From Saccopteryx bilineata (lineage: Eukaryota; Chordata; Mammalia; Chiroptera; Emballonuridae): a stretch of 64,000 nt of DNA. This document shows, piece by piece, positions 7,431 to 61,303 of this stretch (its first letter is position 1; each line of letters starts with the position of its first letter). Both the position numbers and the translations under genes were made by a program. The notes under the pieces were generated by a model, which was not told the DNA's origin, made no database searches, and saw only the letters and a program-made list of their open reading frames with translations. Where the stretch lies: assembly GCF_036850765.1 (NCBI RefSeq), contig NC_089493.1:299080349-299144348 (forward strand). Reading direction: 5' to 3'.

Positions 7431-8917
7431 GATGAGGACTGTGCTAAAGATCATTGTAACCCTACTATCATTACTATTAAGAAGCCTAAAGACCCAAGTT
7501 GGAATTCAGGAAAAACCTGAGGGCTAAGATTATATGTAACTGAACATGATCCTGGTACCTTTTTCACCATTAGAAAGCTTCCTACAAAGAACAGACCTTT
7601 CCTAATAGGAGTAGGGAACGGGCTGCCACCTAGGCCCCCTGTCAGCCTTCCAGCAGCACACACTCTGGCAGCACCAAAACTCCCAGACAGTAAGACAGGC
7701 CTAGACCACAGTGGAGCTACCAAGACTCCTACTGTAGACTCTTTCCCAATAGAGCCAGAGGAGCAGGACCATAAATTACCTATTTACACTCCCAGCCCAT
7801 TACTGGAAAGACCACACCACCAAGAGACGTATGCCCTAGATTTATTAGATAAGGTATTCCCCTTCTTTAACAAGACACAGCCTGAAATTACAGAATCTTG
7901 TTGGCTTTGCCTTAGTCCCAGACCCCCTTTCTATGTAGGGCTTGGAGCCAACACCTTGAGGGAAGGGGAACTGGCTCCTACTACAGTAACCCTTACGAGG
8001 GACCGGTAACAGGATCAGATGAAAGATTGTGTCTCAGAAGGATCTCTCACTTTAGCAGAGTTCCATGGGAAAGGAACCTGCTACCTCTTAGCAAATTTCA
8101 CCTTAGGTAATTCCAATTACAGTGACTATTGCCTTAACCAAGAAACCCTACTCACCACTCTAGAGGACCCAAAAGTGACGAAGGCACCTGAAGGACTATA
8201 GTTTGTGTGTACTCAAGGCATCTTCAAGTGTATAGTCCCCACTCATGCTGAACTTTGTGTAAGTGCTTACATTATTCCACAGGTATATCAGTATGGGGGA
8301 AATCCTGAATTCCTTGTGGCTCACCCGAGGTGGGAAAAATGAGCTCCATTTCTTATCCCTATCATAGCTACCATAGGAATTGTAGGGTCAGCAGCAGTAG
8401 GGACAGCATCCCTCATTCAAGGGGAACTAACCCTCAGACAGCTATCCAAGACATTTTCCAAAGATATTGCACTTCTCCAAAACTAGGTAATATACCTCGA
8501 GAAGCAAATAGACTCCCTAGCCGAGGTAACCCTTCAGAATAGGAGAAAACTAGACCTCCTCCTACTCGAGCAAGGAGGACTGTGTGCTGCTCTAAGAGAA
8601 GAAGGCTGTTTTTATGCTAACCACTCTAGAGTAATTAGAGAGAATATCAAGGTACTTGCAAACAGATTAGAAAATAGGAACTTAGAAGAAAATGACCCAG
8701 GATGGTATGCCGCTATGTTCAGAACTTCCTCTTGGCTAACCACTCTTATATCTACAATTGCTGGGCCATTACTGATACTTTTGTTATCTCTCACTATTGG
8801 GCCTGTAGTTATTAATAAACTTACATTTATTAAGGAAAGAATCGAGACTGTAAAAGTGATGGTTCTGTATCAACCTACCTACATTATCCTTCCTGCTGAT
8901 GAAGAATCAAGGGTTTG
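7431..8917 (+). pseudogene. Endogenous gammaretrovirus-like env relic (3' part of SU plus TM)
   Basis: The decoded fragments have the order of a class I retroviral envelope. A proline-rich surface-subunit stretch comes first, then the CWLC motif near 7901, then the transmembrane subunit. The latter has a glycine/alanine-rich fusion-type stretch near 8390, a heptad-rich segment followed by the QNRRKLDLL-type region near 8535, a cysteine cluster, and a hydrophobic membrane span near 8740-8830. It is broken: in-frame stops near 7530, 8199 and 8342 and frameshifts around 7985-8020 and 8480-8500. In the cysteine cluster the first Cys of the usual CC pair is replaced by Gly. The signal peptide and N-terminal SU are missing. 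It cannot encode an envelope protein. Confidence 0.85.
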
Positions 8918-9466
8918 ATTTATGCCCTAATAGGAGTAGGGAATGTAAGGACCAAGAGAAGATCAGAAAATAAGCAGGGCACTAATGGAACAGGGAACTT
9001 AAGGGTTACAGGCAGGTCCTGCTCCTGTTCTGTTAGGAGTAACGTGCCCAAGGTTGTTCAAGAAGCAGAGACAGATAGGGACTCTGGGAAGCTGAAAGAG
9101 AAGAGAAAAAAACAGGAAAAAGAGACAAACGTTTGCATTCTATTGGTTAAAAGACCTTATCAGAAGTTTAGGTTTGGAATTCGCCAATGAGCTAGACCCC
9201 AGCCCCTGTTGCTATGCTATGTGCAGCCCCCTTAGGAAATAGGTTACCGCCACATCTGCTTCTGTATGAGGGAGGCTTGCTTGCTTAGCTTATAAAAAGA
9301 TTTAGCTGTGAGCGCTAGGTGCGATTCCCATCTGTAGCTCCTTGTGAGCATGGTGTCTCTGGACACCTCGGGAATTTTCCCCTGAGCAGGTTAAACTGGC
9401 CAATAAAGTTACATCTATACTCCTGAAAGTCTCCGACGTTTGTTCTTGACCCAGTGGATGCTACAC
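8918..9466 (+). mobile_element. 3' LTR of the env-bearing ERV
   Basis: Sequence after the env stop has LTR features: a TATA-like CTTATAAAAAGA near 9290, a polyadenylation signal AATAAAG near 9402, and the terminal ...GATGCTACA at 9466. Block CCACATCTGCTTCTGTATGA near 9250 is shared with the solo LTR at 32.98 kb, so the two belong to related families. The 5' limit is not clear because no polypurine tract is preserved. Confidence 0.6.
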
Positions 9467-10245
<779 letters not shown>

Positions 10246-10499
10246 AAATTGCATCTCCACAGCCATAGCTATTACATGGGTCATATCACAGCTCTGAGGG
10301 GACTTCAGAAGGAGTTTACTGACCCCTTCCCTCGCAAGAGTAATCTGTACAGATGTAACTGGTTAAACAAATTCTTTGCTTTCACAATAAGAGATGAGCT
10401 AGACAAACGGTTGCTTAAGTGCTATGGGAATGTCAACATCAATCCTCCATGGTCTCTTGGCCTCCTGTTCTAATAAATCTTATCACCATAACACTATGA

Positions 10500-10678
10500 A
10501 GACCGCCTGACCTGTGGTGTGCAGTGGATAAAGCTTTGACCTGGAACGCTGAGGTTGCTGGTTCAAAACCCTGGGCTTGCCTGGTCAAGGCACATATGGG
10601 AGTTGATGCTTTCTGCTCCTCCTCTCTCTCTCTCTCTCTTTCTCTCTCTCCTCTCTAAAATGAATAAAGTTTAAATAA
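10500..10678 (+). repeat. SINE A (tRNA-derived)
   Basis: The head is CCTGACCTGTGGTG, with a B-box-like GGTTCAAAACC, a TC-rich body and an A-rich AATAAAGTTTAAAT tail. AACACTATGAAGACC is duplicated around it. The orthologous insertion sits at 26069-26246 in the other copy. Confidence 0.9.
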
Positions 10679-11215
10679 AAAACTATGAGACCACATACCA
10701 CATTCCCCCCGTCACTGAAAACAGAGAGTTCCAGGAGAGCCACAGAGAACTTACTCTCATGCACAGAAACTCAACCCTTGGAAATGTGGAAGTCTGGAGT
10801 CAATCTACTTAGCTTACTGCCCAGGGGGAGGGATTTGAGACAGACTCACCAGGAAAGGAATTTCCTTGATTCACAGGAAGTGGAGCCTTTTTTTCTAGTA
10901 GGCTCACAACCCTCCTTCCTGGGCTTCTCTTGGCTCCTGTCATATTTCCTCACCTCTGTGTCTCAGTGGTGTAAACCAGGGAAGAACATGTGCTTGTGCT
11001 TGTGCATGTCTGTGTACCTGGCTCAGTCTGGGCACCTGGTCTCCCTCACTCTCCTCACTGGCCTCTATAGGGTGAGCATCTCATGGTGCATACCACATGG
11101 ACTCCAGATCATTCAATAGTTGCTTTGAATCTCAGCTCTGCCCTCACCATCTGTGCTACCTAAGGCAAGATTCTCACCTTCCATTTTTCTTTATTTTATT
11201 CTATAAAATGAGAAT

Positions 11216-11530
11216 GGTGCCTGACAAGCAGAGGAGCAGTGAATAAAGCACTAAACTGGGACACAGAGGAGTCAGATTCAAACCCCCAAGCTCGCCAGCT
11301 TGATTGAGCGTGAGGTTGCAGGCTTCAGTGTGGAATCATAGACATGACCCCATGATTGCTGGTTTGAGCCCAAGGTTGCTGGATTGAGCTCCTGGTCAAG
11401 GCATATATGAGAGCAATCAATGAACAACTAAGGAGCCCAAATAAAGAATTGATGCTTCTCATCTTTCTCCCTTCCTGTCTTTCCCTATCTGTCACTCTGT
11501 CGGTCTCATGCAAAAAAAAAGAAAGAAAGA
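11216..11530 (+). repeat. SINE C (tRNA-derived, long body)
   Basis: Head GCCTGACAAGCAGAGGAGC, then the type C body with GAATCATAGACATGACCCC and the tail phrase GCAATCAATGAACAAC, ending in AAAGAAAG. Older and more diverged than the A and B copies. Confidence 0.8.
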
Positions 11531-11566
11531 AAAAATTGCTTCTCTCCACTATATAAAACTGTCCTC

Positions 11567-11640
11567 TTGATGTTCCGCTTATCTGTCAGACATTATCCTT
11601 ACTGGACTATCGCCCCTGAGACAGGAATTCCAATTCTTTT
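11567..11640 (+). mobile_element. Fragment of ERV-F 5' LTR
   Basis: CCTCTTGATGTTCCGCTTAT through CCCCTGAGACAGGAATTCCAA matches the start of the LTRs at 27.09, 33.74, 41.69 and 47.86 kb. It ends where similarity to unrelated sequence begins, so the duplication captured only the edge of the provirus that follows PRDM9 at 27 kb. Confidence 0.8.
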
Positions 11641-14770: not shown

Positions 14771-15047
14771 CTGACCCGTCCTTGCGTTCCTGGGTCTGGC
14801 CCCACGCGCGCACCCCGTGGGCCAAGCAGTCAGCCTCAGCGCCCTCTCCTGTGCAGCCCCGCCGGGGCTGGGCGCGCCCGGTGGTCGGAGCATGACGCGC
14901 ACAGGAGCCTGCGCAGCGGCGCAAAGGGAGCGGCGGGGAGGGTGTGGGCAGCGCCGCAGGTGAGCGCAGGGCGGCCAGAACCCAGCGGGGCGAGAGGCGG
15001 TTCCTTCCGGCAGCTACGCGGGGTCACGTGGCCGCGTCTCCCCCCAG
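14771..15047 (+). promoter_or_regulatory. CpG-rich 5' region of the PRDM9-family gene
   Basis: Sharp rise in G+C and CpG directly upstream of the KRAB exon, as expected of a promoter or first-exon region. No exon like the usual PRDM9 start exon is found. An ATG at 14892 followed by a donor at 14960 gives an exon whose phase does not fit the KRAB exon. Because a SINE scrap and an L1 fragment lie just upstream, the original 5' end may be deleted. Confidence 0.4.
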
Positions 15048-15169
15048 GCCCCCGCGCCTTCAGGGATGTCTGCGCCTACTTCTCTCGGGAGGGGTGGCGG
15101 CCATGCGTGACTGGGAGAAAGCGCGCTGCCCCAACGTGTAGAGGAAACTGGACGCGCTGCTGCGCAAAG
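15048..15169 (+). pseudogene. PRDM9-like: PRDM9-family KRAB exon, frameshifted with a stop
   Basis: Acceptor CTCCCCCCAG and donor AAAG/GTGACG bound the exon. It encodes AFRDVCAYFSREGW, which aligns with the KRAB start of PRDM9. One base is then missing (TGGCGGCC where TGGGCGGCC is expected). The shifted frame continues AAMRDWEKARCPNV, then a TAG where PRDM9 has Lys, then RKLDALLRKG. So there are two independent lesions. KRAB in PRDM9 recruits partners such as CXXC1 and EWSR1-type proteins to the hotspot machinery. This exon cannot supply it unless the assembly is wrong twice. Confidence 0.88.
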
Positions 15170-15275
15170 GTGACGGCGCGCGGGCGGGAATCGCGGCGTC
15201 ATGAGGGCCTGCTGAGTGTCGGGGCTCCTCCTACTAGTGCTTCGGTTTTGGGACCACGATTTTGTTTCTCCCCAG

Positions 15276-15383
15276 GGCTCAGCGCTCATCGGCCCGCTTT
15301 CATGGTTCACCGCCGGCAGGCCACCAGACCCCCGGCGGAGGACACTGAGGACTCGCATGAAGAATGGACTCAGAGGCAGCGAG
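15276..15383 (+). CDS. PRDM9-like: PRDM9-family linker exon (after KRAB)
   Basis: Acceptor TTTCTCCCCAG, donor GCGAG/GTGAGG. The frame reads RPAFMVHRRQ and then EDTEDSHEEWTQRQR, matching the PRDM9 segment after KRAB. It is open throughout and ends in phase 1, which also fits the exon at 18282. It contains a Met that could serve as a start codon for a KRAB-less protein, though its context is unremarkable. Confidence 0.93.
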
Positions 15384-16191
15384 GTGAGGGGCCATAGGCC
15401 GGGCGCTGCCCATTTGAAACCGACCCAGGGTCAGGTCCCCAGCGTCTCAACAATAACAAGAGACAGAACTTGCGTTTAGCAAATGAGCCATTGTGCAGTA
15501 TGGGGCGATTTTCTACACTGCTTCCATGTGTAAATGATTACACGTACTTATAGATGTGTTAATGAGCAGGAACGCTATAAAAGTATAAAAACCTGTAAGA
15601 AATAACTCATTCAGAACAGTTCTCATCACAAGAGGAGGAGGAAGGTCTGGCCGGTGAGCAGTGCTCCAGGACAGGGCTGCCTGGCTGCACCAGCCACATT
15701 GCAGACTGGAAAGGATTATTCATGGTGATTAAGGCAGCTGGGGTTGTGGGCCAGGGTAGGGACCATCGTATCAGGCCCTGTGTCAGCCTTTTCTTCAGTG
15801 TGTCTGGTTTTATGAGGGTGTGGTCAGTAAGGTCCTTCTGCGTTCATGGTCTAGCATTGAAACACAGCTGAAGTCCAGATGTGATCTCTAACTTGACCCA
15901 AATGGTTTCTGTGGTCCATAGACTTGAGGCTCTGTTCCCAAGACTGTTTGGTGCTGACCAGACTCTGATGATTAAGGAAGGGCAAGGACGGTTAAATGTG
16001 TAAAGGTGAAAGAATAAGAAGGAAAGGAGGCAAGGTGGTCACTATACCATTAGACTGGACAAGGCCACTCTGGAACAAAAAGACAGAAAGGAGCCCTGGC
16101 CAAGTTGCTTCATTTGTTAGAGAGTCGTCCCCATACAGCAAGGTTCTGGGTTTGATGTCCACTCAGGGCCTATATAAGAATCCACAACTGA

Positions 16192-16530
16192 AGCCTGACC
16201 AGGTGGTAGCACAGAGGATAGAGCATCAACCTGGGATGATGAGGACCCAGGTTCCAAACTGCAATGTTGTGGCTTGAAAATGGGTTCACCAGCTTTAGTG
16301 TGGGGTCACTGGCTGCAGCGTGGGATCATAGATGTGACCCCATGGTCACTGGCTTAAAGCCCAAGGTTGCTGGCTTGAGCAAGGGGTCACTGACTGAGCT
16401 AGAGTCCCCTGGTCAAGACATACATGAGAAAGCAATTAATGAACAACTAAGATGCAGCTATAAGTTGATGCTTCTCATTCCTTTCCCTTCCTTCCTGTCT
16501 CTCTATCTAAAAAATAAAAAAATAAGAATA
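16192..16530 (+). repeat. SINE C
   Basis: GCCTGACCAGGTGGTAGCAC head, GGGATCATAGATGTGACCCC, then GCAATTAATGAACAACTAAG and an AAAAAATAAAAAAATAAG tail. In the PRDM intron. Confidence 0.9.
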
Positions 16531-16614
16531 ATCAACCACTAAATGCATAAATGAGTGGAACAAAAAATCAATGTTTCTCTTTCAATTCTCTCCTCTCTCT
16601 AAAATCAATAAAAA

Positions 16615-16808
16615 CATTTAATTTTTTGATTCTAGAGAGAGAAGTGAGAGTGAAAGAAAGAGAGAAGGGGGAGGCAGACAGGAGCAGGAAGCATCAACTT
16701 CTAGTAGTTACTTCTTGTATGTGTCCTGACCAGGAAAGCCTGGGGTTACAAACTGGTGACCTCAGTGTTCCAGGTCATGGCTTTATCCACTGTGCCACCA
16801 CAGGTTAG
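16615..16808 (-). repeat. Older SINE A-like copy, reverse
   Basis: AGGAAGCATCAACTT, TACAAACTGGTGACCTCAG and CACCACAGGTTAGG are type A phrases read backwards, more diverged than other copies. Confidence 0.75.
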
Positions 16809-16920
16809 GGAAATTTTTTTAATTAAAAAAAAAAGACAGAAAAGATAAAGTTTTATGTTAAAGAAATGGATTTTCTGTCCAGTTAAGTGACCTTTATTAT
16901 ATTATTGACATGAACAGCCA

Positions 16921-17290
16921 ATGTTTTTTCTTTTTCTTTATTGTTTTAGTGAGACATAGAGAGGAAGGGACAGATAGAAACAGACTGGCTAAAAGGGAGA
17001 GAGATTAGAAGCATTAATTCTTCATTGCAGCTCCTTAGTTTTTCATTGATTTCTTTCTCATATATGCCTTGACTGGGCGGGTACAGCTCAGTGAGTGACC
17101 CCTTGCTCAAGGCAGCTATTTTGGACTTGAGCCAGCAACCATGGGGTCTTGCCTATGATCCCATGCTCAAGCCGGCAACCCTGTGTTCAATCTGGTAAGC
17201 CTGCACTAAAGCCAGATTAGCCCGCACTGAAGCCGGCAGCCTCAGGGTTTTAAACCTGGGTCCTCAGCATCACAGTCCATCCTGGAGAAG
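16921..17290 (-). repeat. SINE C, reverse
   Basis: Starts with a T-rich tail, then GTTTTTCATTGATTTCTTTC, TATGCCTTGACTGGGC and CATGGGGTCTTGCCTATGAT, ending in a head-like GTCCATCC. Confidence 0.8.
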
Positions 17291-17564
17291 CAAGACCCTC
17301 TGGACAACAATCTGGATAAAAATTTGATAGGAGAAAATCATTTGTAGATTTCAGTACCTCTGAGTCCTCTAAAGGCTAATAAGTATGGCCAAGGTATGTG
17401 GGGTGGACTTTGGATAGGCCTGGATTTAAGCTCTACTAAAATGAGAGTGAATTTAGCATTGGAGCTTTGGGAAAATCTTACAAATTCTTTGAGCTGTTGA
17501 ATGCTAATGTGTAAGGTGAAGATACAGGCATGTATTCTTGGACAGTATTCAATTTATTTATTTG

Positions 17565-17895
17565 TGTATGTATTTTTTTAGATAAGAGGAGGGAAGATAG
17601 TGAGGCTAATCCCATATGCACCCTTACCAGGATCTACCCAGCAACCCCAATTCTCGAGTACTGAGCTGGTTTTTACACCTCATGGTGACGTCCTTCGGCT
17701 AACCGAGGCATTCTCAGTGCCCAGGGCCAATGCTCAAACCAGTTGAGCCACTGGCTACAGGAAAAGAAGGAGAGAAGAGGGAAAAGGAGGGGTTCAGAAG
17801 GAGATGGTCACTTCTCCTATGTACCCTGACCAGAACCACACCCGGGACATACACTGGGTCAACGCTTTATCCACTGAGCCACTGGCTAGAGCTTA
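17565..17895 (-). repeat. Older composite tRNA SINE (type D), reverse
   Basis: Two head-like segments (GCTCAAACCAGTTGAGCCAC and GCTTTATCCACTGAGCCACT) end to end, both reading backwards. The same composite recurs at 21536-21860, so it is one family rather than two chance insertions. Confidence 0.6.
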
Positions 17896-18281
17896 AATTT
17901 AATGTAAAATAACTGACAGATACACGTTGTCCAATAAATACATCTCTGATAACAGCAACCATATGTTGCGGGTGTTGTATACCAGGCCTTTCCTCAATAC
18001 CTAACATATACTGTGACCTTAATAAATATTTTATGAATAACTAAAATTTGGGAATGTAAATTTCACAATGGGAAGATCTAGAAACAAAAATGAAATTGGC
18101 CATCTCTAGTCAGTGTAGAGGCTTACTATTGTAGAGAATTTCTGAGCCAATAGTTGACAAAGAAAAATACCAGAGTATGTAGAAGGACAGGTGATAATTT
18201 GATGGGAGGAGATTGTGTGTTTTCTGACAAAATAGAGACTAACACTCCAGATTCCACCAAACTCACTCTTCTCCAACTTAG

Positions 18282-18383
18282 AACTCAGGAAAAAGGAGAC
18301 TGAAGTAAAGATGTATAGCCTACGAGAAAGAAAAGGCCATGTGCACCAAGAGGTCAGCAAACCCCAGGACGATGACTACCTCT
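18282..18383 (+). CDS. PRDM9-like: PRDM9-family SSXRD exon
   Basis: Acceptor CTCCAACTTAG, donor CCTCT/GTAAGT. It reads [18 protein letters not shown] and ends PQDDDYL, the SSXRD motif of PRDM9. SSXRD in the SSX family is a transcriptional repression motif; in PRDM9 its partners are less clear. The exon is open and close to the human sequence, so selection has kept it recently or loss of KRAB is recent. Confidence 0.95.
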
Positions 18384-18585
18384 GTAAGTGACCCTGTGAA
18401 AGCATGTCATGTCTTCATACAATAATTTCATCTGGTTATTTGGCCCTTAGAGCATTCCGTTCCCCTATGGACACGCACTACAGAATTGAGGCTCAATGAT
18501 GTGAGTGCCTGGGCTCTCTCTGAATCTCTCTACGTCCAGGAACATGCACTACACCTTCCCTAATCCCTGTTGCTCTCACCCCCAG

Positions 18586-18857
18586 ATTGTGAGAAGTGTC
18601 AGAACTTCTTCATTGACAGTTGTGACGTGCATGGGCCCCCTACATTTGTAAAAGACAGTGCAGTGAATGAGGGGCATCTGAACCATGCAGCCCTCACTCT
18701 GCCCCCTGGGTTGAGAATCAGAGCATCGGGCATCCCTGAGGCTGGGCTTGGAGTGTGGAACGAGGCATCTGCTCTGCCAGTGGGTCTGCACTTTGGCCCT
18801 TATAAGGGCCAGATCACAGAAGATGAAGAGGCAGCTAACAACAAATACTCCTGGCAG
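18586..18857 (+). CDS. PRDM9-like: PRDM9-family exon: zinc knuckle and first part of PR/SET
   Basis: Acceptor CTCTCACCCCCAG, donor GGCAG/GTGAGA. It begins [12 protein letters not shown], the small zinc-binding motif before PR/SET, then [20 protein letters not shown] and [18 protein letters not shown]. The catalytic-core Tyr of G-P-Y (human Tyr276) and the following Gly278 are present. The frame is open. The PR/SET domain trimethylates H3K4 and H3K36 at hotspots in germ-cell nuclei. Confidence 0.97.
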
Positions 18858-19187
18858 GTGAGAAGTATTTACCTCTTCCTCTGTCTTGTGGCTTCCCACA
18901 TCCCTCCCATGGCATGGTGGGACCTGCCCTTCTACATGCTAGGACATGGATGGAGAAAATATGGTAGACTTTGCAGACCAGAGAACTCCTGTTGAGAATC
19001 GCAGCTTAAGTGGGAGCAAAATGGTACAAACACAAAGGAATGCCTCCTCCCAGCCCTGAGTGGACAGGTCAACGCAGATGTGATGAGTAAGAAAAGAATC
19101 ATGTGGTCACGAGTGGCAATGCATGCCAGCTGAAAGAGCTTTGTGGACAGTAGGGTGAAATAATTTTTCTATTACCTCCTCAACTGA

Positions 19188-19289
<102 letters not shown>

Positions 19290-19555
19290 TAAAGCCAAGA
19301 AGTTTCTGGGAGTCATGAGAACACTCATCCCTCTCAGGCCCATACATCTTACATTCTCATTATGCCTCCCTCAGTGGTCTCCCTCAATGCTCTGTTCCTC
19401 TTTTTTCTCCATGTGGTCCTCTTTCAAAGCAAGAGGTATATAGAGGAAAAAAGGGGATAAAAACTATAGCATATGTCCTCAAAATATAAATCTCTATGCT
19501 AGACAAAATTTAGGCACTGGAGAAAAACTGGGAGGTCCTGGGTTACACTTTAATT

Positions 19556-19728
19556 CAGGGGTCTCAAACTCAACTCAGCATGTGGGCCAAAGAGCAAGAT
19601 CACAGCCGTTTGGCAAATACAAGTAGGCCCCTACTCTTACTTAATTTTATCCAAAATATTTTGAACTTCGTGATTTAGTCTGCGAGCCACACAAAATTGT
19701 TCGGTGAGCCGCGAGTTTGAGACTCCTG
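19556..19728 (+). mobile_element. Non-autonomous hAT transposon with 8-bp target duplication
   Basis: 173 bp with inverted ends CAGGGGTCTCAAACTC and GAGTTTGAGACTCCTG. CTTTAATT flanks it exactly on both sides (19548-19555, 19729-19736). It has no coding capacity. Such short hAT elements amplified in bats. In a PRDM intron. Confidence 0.95.
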
Positions 19729-19937
19729 CTTTAATTGATCTAATGAACATTATTTAAGCTCTTAATATATTCCAGTTTAGTGGAAGGTATTCATTACTTA
19801 AGCAGTTCATATAACCCATCATCTTATGTAGAACTAGTTGCAGACACAGTGAAACAATTGATTTTACCAAACTTAAGTTTTTTCATTTTTTGAGAACTGC
19901 ACACTGCCAGCATACTAAAACCAAGCATAGCCTAAAG

Positions 19938-20147
19938 CAGTGGTTAGCAAACTGCAGCTCGTGAGCCACATGGAGCTCTTTGGCCTCTTGAATGTGGCTC
20001 TTCCTGAAAATACCATGTGCAGATACTACCTCAATAAGGAATGTACCTACCTATATAGTTTAAGTTTAAAAATTTTGGCTCTCAAAAGAAATTTCAGTTG
20101 CTGTACTGTTGGTACTTGGCTCTGCTGACTGAGTTTGCCAACCACTG
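19938..20147 (+). mobile_element. Second non-autonomous hAT transposon
   Basis: 210 bp with ends CAGTGGTTAGCAAACT and AGTTTGCCAACCACTG, flanked by GCCTAAAG / GCCTAAAC (one mismatch). The inner GAGCCACATGGAGCTCTTTG and GGCTCTCAAAAGAAATTTCA are typical of a widespread bat hAT family. Different family from the element at 19556. Confidence 0.93.
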
Positions 20148-20329
20148 GCCTAAACCTGTGAGGGCAGCGAATTATCCCAGCCTCCCTTCTAACTAGAACT
20201 GAGTTCTGAAGCCTGCAGATCAATGATCACGGGACACTTTTTTGAGGGGATCTTTTATCAGGGGCTACAGAATGTGAATGAGCTATTATAGTTCTTTATG
20301 ATTTTGCTAAAACTAAGAGACCTCCAAGT

Positions 20330-20683
20330 CCTGCCCGGTTGGCTCAGTGGTAGATCATCAGCCTGGCATGCAGGAGTCCCAAGTTCGATTCCCGGCCAGG
20401 GCACACAGGAGAAGCGCCCATCTACTTCTCCACCCCTACCCCTTTCCTTCCTCTCTGTCTCTCTCTTCCCCTCCCGCAGCCAAGGATCCATTGCAGGAAA
20501 GTTGGCCCCGGCTATGAGGATGGCTCCATGGCTTCCACCTCAGGCACTAGAATGGCTTTGGTTGCAGTAGAGCAATGCCCCAGATGGGCTGATCATCGCC
20601 CTCTGTTGGGCATGATGGGCGGATCCCGCTCAGGCGCATGCAGGAGTTTGTCTGCCTCCCCACTTCTCCTGGGGTGGGGGGAG
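20330..20683 (+). repeat. SINE B (long tRNA-derived)
   Basis: Head CTGCCCGGTTGGCTCAGTGG, box AGTTCGATTCCCGGCCAGG, long unique body ending CACTTCTCCTGGGG. Flanked by GACCTCCAAGT / GACCTCCAGGT. Confidence 0.9.
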
Positions 20684-21160
20684 ACCTCCAGGTTTTTATG
20701 AAAACCTGAGTGAGGCATCAAATGCTATCTAAATAAAATGTGAGGAGAATGGAGAAAGGCCTCTCAAGAAAAGATGAACTTGGGCTAAGTATTAAATGAT
20801 GTAAACTAATCTAGGCACAGATTACAACATCAAGTAGCAAGTTCTGTGATATAAAATAGAACCTGAGTTAGAGGAGCTAGAGGTCACTGGGTTTTATGGT
20901 CAATCAGTGTAAAGGGTACATCTGGAATTGGCTTTGGAAAATGGTATTAGGCAGGATGAGCACCGTATGCAGGATATGGACATTGGAAATCATATGACAT
21001 GGTGACAGGCTCAGACATTGAACAGGAGGTTCTCCGGGAACACTGTGAAACCGGGTGACATCAGAGCCCGAGTGTCACGTGCAGAGATAGACGTGGATCT
21101 GAGAGGTAGTAAGAACTCATCATCTGTGGGTTTCTTTTCTTTCATCTGCCTCAATCCCAG

Positions 21161-21354
21161 GTATGTGAACTGTGCCCGGGATGATGAAGAGCAGAACCTG
21201 GTGGCCTTTCAGTATCGCAGGCAGATTTTCTACCGAACCTGCCGGGTCATCAGGCCAGACTGTGAGCTGCTGGTCGGGTACAGTGATGAGTTTGGCCAGA
21301 AGCTGGGCATCAAGTGCGGCAGCAAGCAGAAGAGAGAGCTCGCAGCACCTGAAG
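21161..21354 (+). CDS. PRDM9-like: PRDM9-family exon: end of PR/SET with catalytic tyrosines
   Basis: Acceptor CTCAATCCCAG, donor GAAG/GTGGGC. It reads [18 protein letters not shown], then [16 protein letters not shown] and the motif [12 protein letters not shown]. Tyrosines matching human Tyr341 (IFY) and Tyr357 (GY) are kept, as is Cys321. The residue before Tyr357, Trp in human, is Gly here, and the residues after it also differ (YSDEFG versus YGDEYG). Whether this alters methyltransferase activity is unknown. The frame is open. Confidence 0.97.
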
Positions 21355-21535
21355 GTGGGCACAACTATTCTTCTAAATGGAAAGAAAAGAGAGCACTCAC
21401 CTTAGAAATTTTCACAGTACACTCTAAAGTCAGTAAGATTTCAAATCAGATGCTTCAGAAATGAAGGATTGATTTCATATGCCTTTGATTCTTAGGAAAA
21501 ATCTTTATATTTTTACTTCAGATTTAATTTTAATT

Positions 21536-21862
21536 TTTTTAAGTGAGAGTAGGGGAGATGGACAGATTCCTTCATGTGCCCCGGCCAGGATCCACACAAC
21601 AACCCTAGTCTGAAGTCCACGCTTGGACTAGCCAAGCTATCCTCAGGGCCAGAGGTCAACACTTGACACAACTGAGTTATCGGGCTGATGCTTGAACCAG
21701 TTGAGGCACTGGCTCTGGGAGGGGAAGAGAGAGAGAAGGGAGAGAGGGAGGGGAAGAGAAACAGATAGTCACTTCTCATTTGTGCCCTGACCAGGGATTG
21801 AACCTGGGACTTCCACATGCCAGGCCAACACTCTGTCCACTGAGCAAACTGGCCAGGGCCTG
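21536..21862 (-). repeat. Older composite tRNA SINE (type D), reverse
   Basis: Segments CTTGAACCAGTTGAGGCACT and CTGTCCACTGAGCAAACTGG repeat the architecture of 17565-17895. In the PRDM intron. Confidence 0.6.
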
Positions 21863-22162
21863 TTTTCTGAGGGCCGCTCTTGTCTAGCATACAGGTTAAG
21901 AGCAGATGACGGATAGATGCCCAGCAGCCTGGAAATACAGTGCTGTGATTAAGCTGAGACACTGGAAACCTTCCTGAATTAGGTGGGACAATGGTGCTGT
22001 TCTCGGCTATAGTGTGTCTTATTCTCTAAGATTTGCTTTGTTAATTTTTTGAAAATGCACTTCAGTGGGGAATTCTCTCAGAGATTACTTCATCTCCAAG
22101 TGAGAGAGGATGGTTGATTAGCTGGAGAGGGATAGGAGTAAAGCATGTAAGAAGTATGGTTC

Positions 22163-22372
22163 GGGGCCCTGGCTGGTTAGTTCAGTTGGTTACAGCATCA
22201 TCCTGTAATACCAAGGTTGAACCGGGTAAACACACATACGAGAAATGACCAATGACTGCATTTCTAGGTAGAAAAATGAATAAATGCCTTTATCTTTCTC
22301 TCTCTCTTTTTTTCTTCTTCTACTTCTTCTTCCTCCTGTCTTTGTCTCTCTAAAATCAATCAATTTTTTAAA
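22163..22372 (+). repeat. Old tRNA-derived SINE
   Basis: GGGGCCCTGGCTGGTTAGTT head, GTACCAAGGTTGAACC-like box, TC-rich body and CTAAAATCAATCAATTTTTT tail. Related to the short copies at 39303 and 63828. Confidence 0.7.
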
Positions 22373-22743
22373 AAGTATGGTTAGGGAAATATTTTGAAAC
22401 AGGACTTCCCATTGTATATGAAATGGGCTGACACTAAATAAAATCAAGTATGAATATTTGGTGTGAGGCTTGAGGAAGGACATTTTCAGTTTATCATCTG
22501 TGGGAAACAATGAGGGAAGCAATTGTTAATTGGGGCCAATTGTCTTTCTAAACAACTGTGTTAAAAGCTAGGTGTATATAAGAAAGGTCAGCATTGTTCC
22601 ACTCACACAAGGGGTGAAACAGCCCCTGACAGTCCCTAATCTGGCAATGCACAGAAAGGACCCTTGATATGGGCTTTCTGGATTTGTAAAAAAGATACAG
22701 TACAAAAAATTAAAAGATAAAATAGAGTGTAAGAAAAAAAACA

Positions 22744-23110
22744 GGACCTGGCCGGTTGGCTTAGCTGTAGAGCGTCGGCCTGGCATGCGGGGGACCCGGG
22801 TTTGATTCCTAGGTAGGGCACATGGGAGAAGCGCCCATTTGCTTCTCCACCCCCCCCCCCATTTTCCTCTCTGTCTCTCTCTTCCCGACCCGTAGCCAAG
22901 GTTCCATTAAAGAAAAGATGGCCCGGGCACTGGGGCTGTCTCCTTGGCCTCTGCCCCAGGCGCTAGAGTGGCTCTGGTCACAGCAGAGTGATGCCCAGGA
23001 GGGGCAGAGCATCACCCCCTGGTGGGCGTTCCAGGTGGATCCCGGTCGGGCGCATGTGGGAGTCTGTCTGTCTCTCCCCGTTTCCAGCTTCAAAAAAACA
23101 AAAAAACAGA
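22744..23110 (+). repeat. SINE B
   Basis: ACCTGGCCGGTTGGCTTAGC head, body with GAGTGGCTCTGGTCACAGCA, ending CCAGCTTCAAAAAAACAAA. In the intron before the zinc-finger exon. Confidence 0.92.
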
Positions 23111-23131
23111 CTGTAAAGAAACACTTTGTGG

Positions 23132-23298
23132 GCCTGACCTGTGGTGGCGCAGAGGATAAAGTGTCAACCTAGAAACACTGAGGTCGCCAGTTCAAAACCC
23201 TGGGCTTGACTGGTCAAGGCACATATGGAAGTTGATGCTTCCTTCTCCTTCCTCCCCTCTCTAAAATGAATAAATAAATAAAATATTTAAAAAAAAGA
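23132..23298 (+). repeat. SINE A
   Basis: GCCTGACCTGTGGTGGCGCA head. A 17-bp target duplication AAAGAAACACTTTGTGG flanks it (about 23115 and 23295). Confidence 0.93.
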
Positions 23299-23436
23299 AA
23301 CACTTTGTGGAAGACAGAGATTACACTGTCAAACCCATAAGAATGACTCATGAGAGAAGTCTTAGCAGTGGACAAAACATATGACCCACGCACTCTTATC
23401 AACATCTACTTTGACCAAAATTTACTCTTTCCGCAG

Positions 23437-25628
23437 AACCAAAGCCAGAGATACATCCGTGTCCTTCATGCTCTCTGGCCTTCTCCAGTCAGAAATTCTT
23501 CACCCAGCACGTGAAACGCAGTCACCCCAATGAGATTCTCCCAGGAACATCTACAAGAAAACAGCTCCAATCAAAGGATCCTTGCCCAGACCATCCAATT
23601 CAGCAGCAGCAACATACTGATACACACAGCTGGGATGACAAAGCTGAAGGTCATGAGGTCAAAGAAAAGTCCAGACCTTTGCTTAAAAGGACCAGGCAGA
23701 GGAGTATTTCAAGGGCCTTTTTCAAACCTCCTAAAGGACACATGGGAAGCTCTAGTGAGCAAGAGAGAATGATGCAGGAAGTGCCCAGCACAGGCCAGGA
23801 AGTAAATTCAGTGGACACAGGCAAAGTATCTATGGGAGTGGAAATGTCAAGAATTGTAGCTGTCAAGTATGGAGAGTGTGGGCAAGACTTTGAAGATAAG
23901 TCAGATCTCCTTATACACCAAAGGACAAACTCAGGGGAGAAACCCTATGTTTGCAGGGAGTGTGAACGAGGCTTTACACGGAAGTCAGATTTCCTCAGAC
24001 ACCAGAGGACACACACAGGGGAGAAGCCCTATGTTTGTGGGGAGTGTGAGCGAGGGTTTGCACGGAAGGCAGATCTCCTCATACACCAGAGGACACACTC
24101 AGGAGAGAAACCCTATGTTTGCAGAGTGTGCAAGCATGGCTTTGCACAGAAGTCACATCTCCTCATACACCAGAGGACACATTCACCGGAGAAACCCTAT
24201 GTTTGCAGGGTGTGCAAGCGTGGCTTTGCACGGAAGTCACACCTCCTCATACACCAGAGGACACATTCAGGGGGAAAACCCTATGTTTGCAGGGAGTGTG
24301 AGCGAGGCTTTCTATGCAAGTCAGATCTCCTCAAACACCAGAGGACACACACAGGGGTGAAACCCTATGTTTGCAAGGTGTGTGAGCGTGATTTTGCATG
24401 GAAGTCAAATCTCATCATACACCAGAGGACACACTCAGGTGAGAAACCCTATATTTGCAGGGTGTGTGAGCATGGCTTTGCAAGGAAGTCACAGCTCCTC
24501 AGACACCAGAGGACACACTCAGGGGAAAAGCCCTATGTTTGCAGGGAGTGTGACCAAGGCTTTGCACAGGAGTCAACTCTCCTCAGACACAACAGGACAC
24601 ACTCAGGGGAGAAGCCCTATGTTTGCAGGGAGTGTGAACGAGGCTTTGGACATAAGTCTCATCTCCTCACACACCTGAGGACACATTCAGGTGAGAAGCC
24701 CTATGTTTGCAGGGAGTGTGAGCGAGGCTTTGCACGGAAGTCAGATCTCCTCAGACACCAGAGGACACACTCAGAAGAGAAGCCCTATGTTTGCAGGGAG
24801 TGTGAGCGAGGCTTTGCCCAGAAATCATATCTCCTCAGACACCAGAGAACACACTCAAGGGAGAAGCCCTATGTTTGCAGGGAGTGTGAGCGAGGCTTTG
24901 CCCAGAAATCATATCTCCTCAGACACCAGAGAACACACTCAAGGGAGAAGCCCTATGTTTGTGGGGAGTGTGAACGAGGCTATACCTGGAAGTCAGACCT
25001 CCTCAGACACAACAGGACAAACTCAGGGGAGAAGCCCTATGTTTGCAGGGAGTGTGAACGAGGCTTTGCACAGAAGTCTCATCTCACACACCTGAGTACA
25101 CACTCAGGGGAGAAGCCCTATGTTTGTGGGGAGTGTGAGCGAGGGTTTGCACGGAAGGCAGATCTCCTCATACACCAGAGGACACACTCAGGAGAGAAAC
25201 CCTATGTTTGCGGAGTGTGCAAGCATGGCTTTGCACGGAAGTCAGATCTCTTCATACACCAGAGGACACATTCAGGGGAGAAACCCTATGTTTGCAGGGT
25301 GTGCAAGCGTGGCTTTTCAAGGAAGTCAAATCTCCTCAGACACCAGAGGACACACTCAGAAGAGAAGCCCTATGTTTGCAGGGAGTGTGAGCGAGGCTTT
25401 GCCCAGAAATCGTATCTCCTCAGACACCAGAGGACACACTCAGGAGAGAAGCCCTATGTTTGCAGGGAGTGTGAGCGAGGCTTTGCCCAGAAATCGTATC
25501 TCCTCAGACACCAGAGAACACACTCAAGGGAGAAGCCCTATGTTTGCAGGGAGTGTGAACGAGCCATTGCACGGGTCTCATCTCACACACCTCAGGACAC
25601 ACTCAGGGCAGAAGCCCTATGTTTGTAG
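23437..25628 (+). CDS. PRDM9-like: PRDM9-family last exon: post-SET finger and 19-finger C2H2 array
   Basis: Acceptor CTCTTTCCGCAG. It opens with [19 protein letters not shown], the isolated post-SET zinc finger, then a basic linker and a degenerate finger (one Cys, last His changed to Asn). From 23940 come 19 head-to-tail 28-residue fingers of the form [10 protein letters not shown]...[13 protein letters not shown]-contact residues (-1,3,6) by finger: RDR, RDI, QHI, RHI, CDK, WNI, RQR, QTR, HHT, RDR, QYR, QYR, WDR, (short), RDI, RDI, RNR, QYR, QYR. Finger 13 ends N-R-T-N, losing a zinc ligand. Finger 14 lacks one helix residue. Finger 20 is frameshifted by a 2-nt loss near 25573 and ends at TAG 25626. 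Such arrays bind DNA to place hotspots. Confidence 0.97.
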
Positions 25629-25800
25629 GGAGTGTGAGCAAAGCTTTGCAAGGAAATTCCAGCTCCTCAGACACCAGAGAATACACTCAGGGGAGAAGCC
25701 TTATGTTTGCAGGGAGTGCAAGCAAGGCTTAACATAGAAGGCAAATCTCATACACTAGAGGACACACTCAGGGGAGAAGACCTATGTTTGCATAGAGGGT
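25629..25800 (+). pseudogene. Decayed last fingers beyond the array stop
   Basis: After the frameshift the finger pattern continues in another frame: [20 protein letters not shown], then a finger start ending CKQGLT-stop, then stop-ridden finger scraps up to GTTTGCATAGAGG. Compared with the duplicate at 10004-10245 one 84-bp finger is missing here, as expected if unequal exchange removed it. Confidence 0.9.
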
Positions 25801-27090
25801 AGCAAGTTATTAGCATAAAATTGCATCTCCACAGCCATAGCTATTACATGGGTCATATCCAAGCTCTGAGGGGACTTCAGAAGGAGTTTACTGACCCCTT
25901 CCCTCACAAGAGTAATTTGTACAGATGTAACTGGTTAAACAAATTCTTTGCTTTCACACTAAGAGATTTGCTAGAGAAACGGTCCCTTAAGTGCTATGGG
26001 AATGTCAACACCAATCCTCCATGGTCTCTTGGCCTCCTGTTCTAATCTTATCACCATAACACTATGAAGACCGCCTGACCTGTGGTGTGCAGTGGGTAAA
26101 ACTTTGACCTGGAATGCTGACGTCGCTGGTTCAAAACCCTGGGCTTGCCTGGTCAAGGCACATATGGGAGTTGATGCTTTCTGCTCCTCCCTTCTCTCTC
26201 TATCTCTCCTCTCTCTCTAAAATGAATAAATTAAAAAAAAAAACTATGAAGACCACATACCTCATTTCCCCCTGTCACTGAAACCAGAGTTCCAAGAAAG
26301 CCACTGAGAACTCACACTCTCATGCACAGAAACTCAACCCTCTGGAAATGTGGAAGTCTGGAGTCAATCTACTTCGCTTACTGCCCAGGGGGAGGGATTT
26401 GAGACAGACTCACCAGGGATGGAATTTCCTTAATTTCCAGGAAGTGGCACCTTTTTTTTAGTAGGCTCACAACCCTCCTTCCTGGGCTTCTCTTGGCTCC
26501 TGTCATATTTCCTCTGACCTCTGTGTCTCAGTGGTGCAAACCAGGGAAGAACTTGTGCTTGTGCATGTCTGTGTACCTGGCTCAGTCTGGGCATCTGGTC
26601 TCCCTCACTCTCCTCACTGGCCTCTACAGGGTGAGAATCTCATGGTGCATACTACATGCACTCTGGATCATTCAATAGTTGCTTTGAATCTCAGCTCTGC
26701 CCTCACCAGCTGTGCTACCTAAGGCAAGATTCTCATAAAATGAGAATGGTGCCTGACTAGCAGTGCAGCAGTGAATAAAGCACTAAACTGAAACACAGAG
26801 GATCCAGGTTCAAAACCCCAAGCTCACCAGCTTGATTGAGCCTGAGGTTGCAAGCTTCAGTGTGGAATCATAGACATGACCTCATGATTGCTGGCTTGAG
26901 CCCAAGGTTGCTGGATTGAGCTTCTGGTCAAGGCACATATGAGAGCAATCAATGAACAACTAAGGAGCCCAAATAAAGAATTTGATGCTTCTCATCTTTC
27001 TCCCTTTCTTTTCCTATCTGTCCCTCTGTCGGTCTCATGCAAAAAGAAAAAAAAAAGAAAAAATTGCTTCTCTCCACTATATAAAACTGC
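25801..27090 (+). repeat. PRDM9 3' flank, duplicated at 10246-11566
   Basis: Includes the conserved but probably untranslated MHLHSHSYYMGH reading frame (25821-26045), SINE A at 26069-26246 (CGCCTGACCTGTGGTGTGCA), a MIR scrap (CTCAGCTCTGCCCTCACCAG) and SINE C at 26750-27060. AATAAA present near 10470 in the other copy is lost here (TTCTAATCTTATC). Confidence 0.88.
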
Positions 27091-27825
27091 CCTCTTGATG
27101 TTCCACTTACTGGACCTCACCCTTACTGGACTATCGCCCCTGAGACTGGAATTCCAAGAAGCTGACAAGCTGCCCCAAGGAGTGGCTCCTGATATACCAG
27201 GACTTTTTTTTTTCTTTTGTATTTTTCTGAAGCTGCAAACGGGGACAGTCAGACTCCCGCATGTGCCCGACCGGGATCCACCCAGCACGCCCACCAGGGG
27301 CGACCCCCTGCCCACCAGGGGGCGATGCTCTGCCCCTCCAGGGCATTGCTCTGCCATGACCAGAGCCACTCTAGCGCCTGGGACAGGGGCCAAGGAGCCA
27401 TCCCCAGCACCCGGGCCATCCCTGCTCCACTGGAGCCTCGGCTGTGGGAGGGGAATAGAGAGAGAGGAAGGAGGGGAGGGGGTACAGAAGCAAATGGGCG
27501 CCTCTCCTATGTGCCCTGCCCAGGAATTGAACCTGGGTCCCCTGCACGCCAGGTCGATGCTCTACCACTGAGGCAACCAGCCAGGGCCCATACCAGGACT
27601 TTTGATTCAACACCCACATGCTCGAAGCCCCCCAAGGAGGAACGTTCCAGACATACCAGAACTTTTGCCTCAGTATCCCCTCAGGCTCTCCCAAAAACTA
27701 TGTAACTTGCCCCTAGTTTGTAGCTGGTTCTCTTCTCCCTGGAGAAGTGCCCGGCAGGGTCTCTTTCTTTCTTTCAAGAAAGCCTGTTGTTACTCTGGCC
27801 TTCTGAACTCCCATGGATTCCAACA
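27088..27825 (+). mobile_element. ERV-F1 5' LTR, interrupted by a SINE B
   Basis: LTR starts within CTGCCCTCTTGATGTTCC; its first about 15 nt are missing. It has CTATGTAACTTGCCCC, then TTCTTTCAAGAAAGCC where other copies keep an AATAAAG polyadenylation signal, and ends ATTCCAACA. It is split by a reverse SINE B at 27198-27592, with TACCAGGACTTTT duplicated around it. Confidence 0.88.
27198..27592 (-). repeat. SINE B, reverse, in the LTR
   Basis: GTATTTTTCTGAAGCTGCAA start, GGGCGATGCTCTGCCCCTCC body, GAGGCAACCAGCCAGGGCCC head. Target duplication TACCAGGACTTTT. The ORFs of 150-210 codons across it are SINE read-through. Confidence 0.95.
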
Positions 27826-35160: not shown

Positions 35161-35946
35161 TGTTGTAAGGTACCAAAAAGCTGAAAATTGATATTGATAT
35201 TCTGGGAGGAAAAGTCAGGTTTTCTTATCAGGCTTTCCTGTCCCACCCTCCTTTAGGGAGGGGAGGGAGAAGAATGCAGAAGTTTCTGGCTTGCAAGAAC
35301 AATAGGTCATTCAGTTTGAAATCTAAAATAAAGGTTAACCAAAAAACTTCTTCTCTTTCAATAGGAGGCAAAATTTACATACCACCTTGCATTGATTGTA
35401 GTTCCTCCCATTCCTGGAATCTTGAGAGTAAAATACCTCTAGGCTACTGAGGAAAGATGAACCCTGAAACATTTGTAAACATCTTTGTGTTACCTTGAGA
35501 GTCATAATGTTTCTGTGTATCCCCTAAAGAAATGTTGCCAGCTTGTACAGTGATGTCATGCTCTCCCCCTCCCGTGTGCGATCAAGGGTATACAAGCAGC
35601 CCCTGATCTATTTTTGGCAGTGCACAATTTGAGCCTGATGCTTTCTGTAGGCCATATGCGGCCAGCTTATTTTATTTTATTTTTTTTAAGATTTTTATTT
35701 ATTTTTATTCATTATGGGGGGGAGAGAGAGAGAGAGAGAGAGAGAGAAGGGGGAAGGAGCAGAAAGCATCAACTCCCATATGTGCCTTGACCAGGCAAGC
35801 CCAGGGTTTTGAACCGGCAACCTCAGCGTTTCCAGGTTGACGCTTTATCCACTGCGCCACCACAGGTCAGGCTGCGGCCAGCTTATTAATAAATCTCCTC
35901 CTCTAATAAAACTCTTCAAAATTCATCTGGACTTGGTGTCTCTACA
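35161..35946 (+). mobile_element. LTR of the third ERV, with SINE A inserted
   Basis: TGTTGTAAGGTACC start after a purine-rich CAGTGGGGAA, AATAAAACTC near 35906, TCTCTACA end. A reverse SINE A at about 35670-35876 splits it, flanked by GCGGCCAGCTTATT on both sides. Not the same LTR family as ERV-F. Confidence 0.75.
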
Positions 35947-61015: not shown

Positions 61016-61172
61016 GATGTTCCTCGTGAAGGGACGAGCCCCAGCAGGCATCCGACACACTGTGCCGTCCAGGACTGAGGTCAGCCATGTTCCGTCCTTA
61101 CCACCCCTGAGCAAGTCAGACATGGGAAAACAAGAAGGTTGTCTGTTGTGACACCTGGCACTGTTGCTGTAC

Positions 61173-61303
61173 CTGAGCACAGGGAGCTCAGCCAGGGCCA
61201 CCTGCAGCCGTGCCTCCTTGGTCCGGGCGTTGCAGCGGAAAATGTGCAGGACCACCGTGAACCGGTCGAACACCTGCACGCCCCAGGCGGCCTCCAGTTC
61301 TTT
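61173..61303 (-). CDS. GTPBP6: GTPBP6 exon (HflX N-terminal domain)
   Basis: 131 bp; acceptor TGCACTTCTAG, donor GCTCAG/GTACAG. Reads KELEAAWGVQVFDRFTVVLH then IFRCNARTKEARLQVALAEL, the conserved HflX-family segment. Frame open and phase fits the next exon. The preceding segment of human GTPBP6 is not found between here and 62293. Confidence 0.95.

Follow-up and report, generated by a model that had tools for sequence, protein, structure and literature searches.

We analysed a window of 64,000 nucleotides (C4:299080349-299144348) from the 2.61 Gb assembly of the bat Saccopteryx bilineata. At positions 15048-25628 it contains a member of the PRDM9 family whose KRAB exon is disabled; the SSXRD and PR/SET exons are open, and there are 19 zinc fingers. 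PRDM9 is normally present in one or few copies, as the gene that sets the position of crossovers and as a possible cause of hybrid sterility. The named exons of the window gene bear proper splice sites (Table 1) and, once spliced, show 100% identity to an NCBI protein from S. bilineata across 98% of a query of 400 residues. Likewise, PRDM9 structures matched the PR/SET pieces with best E-values of 1.3e-30 (human) and 4.7e-48 (mouse), far beyond chance. Exons, splice sites and structure matches thus bear out the original prediction, made from the sequence alone, that a PRDM9-family gene lies here and that its KRAB exon is disabled.

The window gene does not have the intact KRAB exon of a complete PRDM9. 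When compared to an intact copy found on contig C8 (see below), its KRAB exon misses two single bases, one near 15054 and the other near 15095-15097, and also contains a TAG; it reaches 11.2 bits with the Pfam KRAB profile, under the cut-off of 20.4, and it was absent from the eight matches of a genome-wide KRAB search (150 of 222 candidates scored). The exon had been read as carrying one deletion and a separate stop; the stop, at 15139, was confirmed, but the number of deletions has to be raised to two. A start exon and exon 5 had been reported as not found. There is, however, a homologue of the start exon, devoid of an in-frame ATG, whereas exon 5 is indeed largely gone, except for ca. 12 residues of its end that are followed by a stop. 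SSXRD and a PR/SET domain with Y276, Y341 and Y357, which are features of complete PRDM9 genes, are nevertheless present, as is the combination of open SET and fingers without KRAB that distinguishes KRAB-less partial PRDM9 genes.

A complete PRDM9 exists in the same assembly, at C8:35824-44582, with start exon (35824-35904), KRAB, exon 4, both parts of exon 5, SSXRD, all the SET exons with the triplet W356-Y357-G358, and a finger frame of 543 codons. Among the eight matches of the KRAB search, the only full PRDM9-like KRAB was that of this gene (C8:36009-36128, 61 bits); six others showed 39-49% identity. The next best was a second KRAB exon on C13 (C13:74049364-74049468), 63% identical to that of PRDM9, which we take to belong perhaps to an SSX gene; this would make C13 the X chromosome. 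Likewise, the second part of exon 5 had its sole genome match on C8 (17 of 17 candidates scored), in a search that short remnants would escape. The original prediction had advised looking for another copy with an intact KRAB, and had regarded a complete PRDM9 elsewhere, together with lack of transcription of the window copy, as the mark of a plain pseudogene; the first of these is what we found. The C8 gene also rules out that this is a third case of a mammal deprived of complete PRDM9.

The C8 gene seems to be missing from the annotated proteins, whereas several of the copies without KRAB and exon 5, hereafter headless copies, are annotated. No emballonurid protein appeared among the 120 of 217 matches listed for a query with the C8 protein, whose top match was from Pipistrellus (78%). 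In a set of 120 listed proteins that included 15 from emballonurids, none of these 15 contained a full KRAB, and a KRAB-like match occurred in 80 of the 120. S. bilineata could therefore be scored as lacking a complete gene, and surveys of PRDM9 that rely on annotation can mislead.

We aligned to the C8 gene the KRAB exons from 30 of 41 genomic rows, the window itself among them, and the identical base was absent in all 30. The main KRAB deletion is thus shared and old, that is, ancestral, which rules out a recent private loss. The distance between the conserved Tyr and Asp codons of the KRAB was 32 nucleotides in 21 copies, 31 in six, 30 in one and 20 in two, and additional KRAB lesions were specific to particular clades. 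The protein model P0019 from S. leptura also shows the same shifted KRAB reading frame. Given the shared deletion and this model, the proposal of a recent loss of the 5' end does not hold. Several copies free of the C4 stop contain, after the deletion, an ATG in a context favourable to initiation (GCCGCCATGG), from which the NCBI model P0013 starts. We also observed one headless copy, L026 (C29:93766-94134), in which the KRAB frame has been reopened via two further lost bases; it has no EEW core and was not among the matches of the KRAB search.

The linker of the finger exon was found, in near-full form, at 81 places in the genome, including C8 and the window, 42 of which are on 13 chromosome-scale contigs. 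These 81 are the top of 150 linker matches, down to an E-value of 1.1e-47, with the lower rows, mostly fragments, left out; the unplaced contigs may include second haplotypes. Similarly, SET exon 9 retrieved 106 genome matches, a few of them from other PRDM genes or fragments. The loci compared have their introns and upstream flanks in common, and the introns can be aligned between copies; the headless copies are therefore not retrocopies, and an origin as processed pseudogenes is ruled out. In C4, seven copies follow each other in a single orientation, spaced ca. 35-48 kb.

Placed copies concentrate near the contig ends, with 30 of the 42 within 1.7 Mb (1.7% of the sequence) and 22 within 0.5 Mb (0.5% of the sequence), although the limit of 1.7 Mb was chosen after the C4 run had been seen. 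The 30 copies are spread over all 13 contigs and occupy 15 of the 26 ends. The idea that copies occur at every telomere is weakened, because there were no telomere repeats at the 15 contig ends examined and scaffolds break in the duplications; we thus speak of scaffold ends instead of telomeres, and the placement may partly be an effect of the assembly. Indeed, the chromosome-scale contigs C9 and C10 begin inside PRDM9 copies (C9:1 and C10:1; L159 and L044), showing that the family breaks the assembly.

In a protein tree of 46 rows, the headless sequences of S. bilineata and S. leptura form one clade with P0012 from R. naso (support 97/96, with the bootstrap not fully settled), and the C8 gene and P0008 from R. 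naso, which bears exon 5, fall outside it. Because the headless rows of both Saccopteryx species are in one clade, the founder is older than the divergence of these two species, and perhaps also older than that of Rhynchonycteris.

The PR/SET domain of the window gene retains the three tyrosines, with changes W356G and G358S flanking the catalytic Y357. The resulting triplet, GYS, can be set against WYG, which occurs in 100 of 109 PRDM9/7 proteins from other animals, a set from which phyllostomids and emballonurids had been put aside; neither Cys nor Phe was found at Y357 in the readable triplets of these 109 proteins, four of which had none. In the genome, GYS occurs in 11 and WYG in 56 of 80 copies, the best of 106 SET exon 9 rows by protein score, a choice that favours conserved copies. 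GYS is also present in two proteins from S. leptura, P0010 and P0019. We infer that W356G and G358S may affect activity. A Y357 change in PRDM7 abolishes its H3K36me3 activity and apparently spares that on H3K4me3, and the same paper reportedly saw no Y357 change in a complete PRDM9 orthologue (PMC5519329). Among 47 phyllostomid PRDM9-like proteins, picked by hand by name from protein search listings and consisting of annotated gene models, not DNA, the triplets were WCG (20), WFG (15) and WYG (12), and eight proteins combine a full KRAB with an altered Y357. Two bat expansions thus altered the same catalytic spot, in S. bilineata at W356 and G358 and in most of the phyllostomid proteins picked at Y357.

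Linker, SSXRD, zinc knuckle and PR/SET had been described as open with good splice sites, which we confirm, and so are the 19 fingers. Only 17 of these, however, are canonical, since one lacks the last His and another is short of a residue (a 3-nt deletion), and a frameshift near 25560 places the last fingers out of frame and removes the natural end shared by other copies. Rapid evolution of the contact residues is a published mark of complete PRDM9 (PMC5519329). In the window array, 35% of finger diversity is at contact positions and identity between units is 84%, whereas the C8 array, with 13 counted fingers, has 63% of its diversity in the four contact residues, and its units share a mean DNA identity of 94%. 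The window fingers are thus less homogenised and less diverse at contacts than those of C8. Nevertheless, contact share is not a clean divider: it ranges from 0.17 to 0.73 in full-KRAB proteins of other mammals (0.17 in P0029, 0.36 in P0047, 0.39 in both P0037 and P0076) and reaches 0.49-0.50 in two headless proteins from S. leptura, which weakens its use as a single number.

Together, our results indicate that the window gene is very probably a headless paralogue of PRDM9 rather than the gene that sets recombination hotspots in this species, because one complete PRDM9 exists elsewhere. Of the two alternatives in the original prediction, a KRAB-less PRDM9 using an internal start or a paralogue with a recently lost 5' end, the paralogue stands, though not its recent origin. 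We propose that one founder copy lost the KRAB base and exon 5, and that it would then have multiplied by segmental duplication with introns and flanks kept, including the tandem run of units of ca. 40 kb that holds the window. If translated, the window gene would start at the ATG at 15302 and yield SSXRD, a PR/SET domain changed around its catalytic residue and a finger array, with no KRAB; such a product should not recruit the double-strand-break machinery. In mouse, a knockout of KRAB only concentrates recombination at promoter-like sites (PMC8892340). The window gene is most likely a decaying copy, as judged from its sequence, because the PR/SET exons of its clade drift close to neutrality. 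When the window gene is compared with four relatives on C4, the first PR/SET exon shows 37.9 substitutions/kb, versus 41.1 in introns, and in the window's clade of seven an omega of 1 is just 1.6 log units under the best grid value of 0.6, and thus not separable from it.

Several results weigh against this interpretation. An alternative, which we consider rather unlikely, is that headless copies are working KRAB-less DNA-binding finger proteins under selection, perhaps competitors of PRDM9 or transcription factors. In 13 headless copies from different clades, the first PR/SET exon accumulated 42.5 substitutions/kb against 101 in introns, with lower values in 77 of 78 pairs, whereas the KRAB exon appears unconstrained across clades (167 versus 141 in introns). 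Over 24 headless copies, the best omega in a grid of fixed values was 0.6, 13.5 log units better than 1; C8 was left out of these 24, and its inclusion gave a like result (26 of 30 loci were paired, L066 having been dropped for a missing exon). Private changes in the first PR/SET exon of 29 headless copies gave a ratio of nonsynonymous to synonymous changes (pN/pS) of 0.42 (p 0.0009). A finger frame of at least 300 amino acids with a stop-free linker is present at 34 of the 81 places, and there are NCBI protein models for the window copy and four other C4 copies. Even among the window gene and its four C4 relatives, the short exons e6 (31.7/kb) and e8 (23.5/kb) are below introns (41.1/kb). The finger exon is open to the shared natural end in six of seven relatives, with a chance of 0.005-0.043 each at intron rates, although these seven are the top rows of a protein search and so a favourable choice. 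Cross-clade constraint, open finger exons and NCBI models agree with past or continuing translation of the family, and indicate that it was constrained as a headless protein. Constraint is not uniform, however: in the 13-copy comparison e6 (93/kb) and e8 (71/kb) are nearer to introns, private changes in the last SET exon of 79 copies gave a pN/pS of 0.88 (p 0.27), and the window's own clade is near neutral. The contrast between exons is not clean either, because indels are rarer in the KRAB exon than in introns too (7.4 versus 14.1/kb), and an apparent constraint could also stem from gene conversion by constrained copies. A broader scenario, quite unlikely and advanced here as speculation, is that an emballonurid copy deprived of KRAB box and exon 5 grew into a large, still translated, chromosome-scattered family of finger proteins, part of them, in parallel with phyllostomids, with an altered W356-Y357-G358, whose products would occupy DNA without starting recombination and tune, or compete with, the complete PRDM9.

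Open SSXRD, a SET with its three catalytic tyrosines, a long finger array and the in-frame ATG in exon 4 would also suit a KRAB-less PRDM9 that places recombination via an internal start. This is highly improbable, given the complete gene on C8, the lower homogenisation and contact diversity of the window fingers, the W356G and G358S changes and the published data on KRAB loss (PMC8892340). There is next to no likelihood that the KRAB lesions stem from errors in sequencing or from haplotype artefacts: the assembly does break in these duplications, as seen in C9 and C10, but all 30 copies, from different places, lack the same base, further lesions are clade-specific and the shifted frame recurs in P0019 from S. 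leptura.

Our literature searches retrieved nothing for PRDM9 with Saccopteryx and, for PRDM9 with Emballonuridae, just a review (PMC12412728), whose single passage on PRDM9 deals with phyllostomids. One of the closest known systems is the phyllostomid expansion, described as phyllostomid-specific, with five additional genes and more in Artibeus jamaicensis (PMC10510315). Both are multi-copy bat PRDM9 families with many copies without KRAB; S. bilineata, however, belongs to another family, and shows 81 near-full places with one shared KRAB lesion and one loss of exon 5. The partial PRDM9 genes of platypus, catfish and swordtail also keep SET and fingers without KRAB (PMC5519329, PMC8892340), but there they replace the complete gene, of which S. 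bilineata retains one. Primate PRDM7 is likewise a PRDM9 paralogue with a changed catalytic neighbourhood, in its case at Y357, although the eight primate PRDM7 genes described have no finger array (PMC5519329), whereas S. bilineata contains dozens of copies, many with long arrays, in which we saw no intact KRAB. The canid PRDM9 pseudogene is also PRDM9-derived sequence with disabling lesions; canids reportedly have no copy other than pseudogenes (PMC5519329), unlike S. bilineata with its complete copy. Interest thus shifts from the window gene to its family, whose size and spread are striking: a mammal in which a single complete PRDM9 coexists with dozens of headless copies offers a natural test of the contributions of KRAB, SET activity and fingers.

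Table 1. Features of the PRDM9-family gene and of a related fragment in the window
Feature	Position	Strand	Evidence
Homologue of the start-codon exon, no in-frame ATG	14892..14959 (approximate)	+	Alignment with the start exon of C8 (35824-35904)
Disabled KRAB exon, with TAG at 15139 and two 1-nt deletions when compared to C8	15048..15169	+	
Linker exon (exon 4), open; NCBI model P0001 begins at its ATG (15302)	15276..15383	+	
Exon 5, remnant of its end (HPGEARPSGQQS), then stop	17278..17313	+	tblastn E 0.002; homology to C8 from 17277
SSXRD exon, open; in-frame junction with exon 4	18282..18383	+	
Zinc knuckle and first PR/SET exon, open	18586..18857	+	PRDM9 structures, E 4.7e-48
Small middle SET exon, open; completes the SET domain	19221..19288	+	
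Last SET exon, open; Y341 and Y357 retained, W356G and G358S	21161..21354	+	
Finger exon, with 19 fingers in frame (17 of them canonical) and a frameshift near 25560	23437..25628	+	
Piece of a second PRDM9 copy, with a remnant of fingers and the 3' tail	9914..11633	+	10028-11633 89% identical to 25600-27157

The NCBI model P0001 of the window gene omits part of the finger array and extends into sequence near 54 kb, and its 3' end is probably wrong. Towards the end of the window, where a gene lies at 53-63 kb, a segment at 61171-61303 of the minus strand matched the Pfam family GTP-bdg_M with 19.8 bits, below the cut-off, and another at ca. 62.7-63.1 kb had no Pfam match; we presume from their resemblance that both are exons of GTPBP6, beside the PRDM9 run on this 300 Mb contig. 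GTPBP6 is a pseudoautosomal gene in other mammals. Upstream of the PRDM9-family gene, the window contains two pieces of a retroviral envelope (7521-8918; Pfam TLV_coat).

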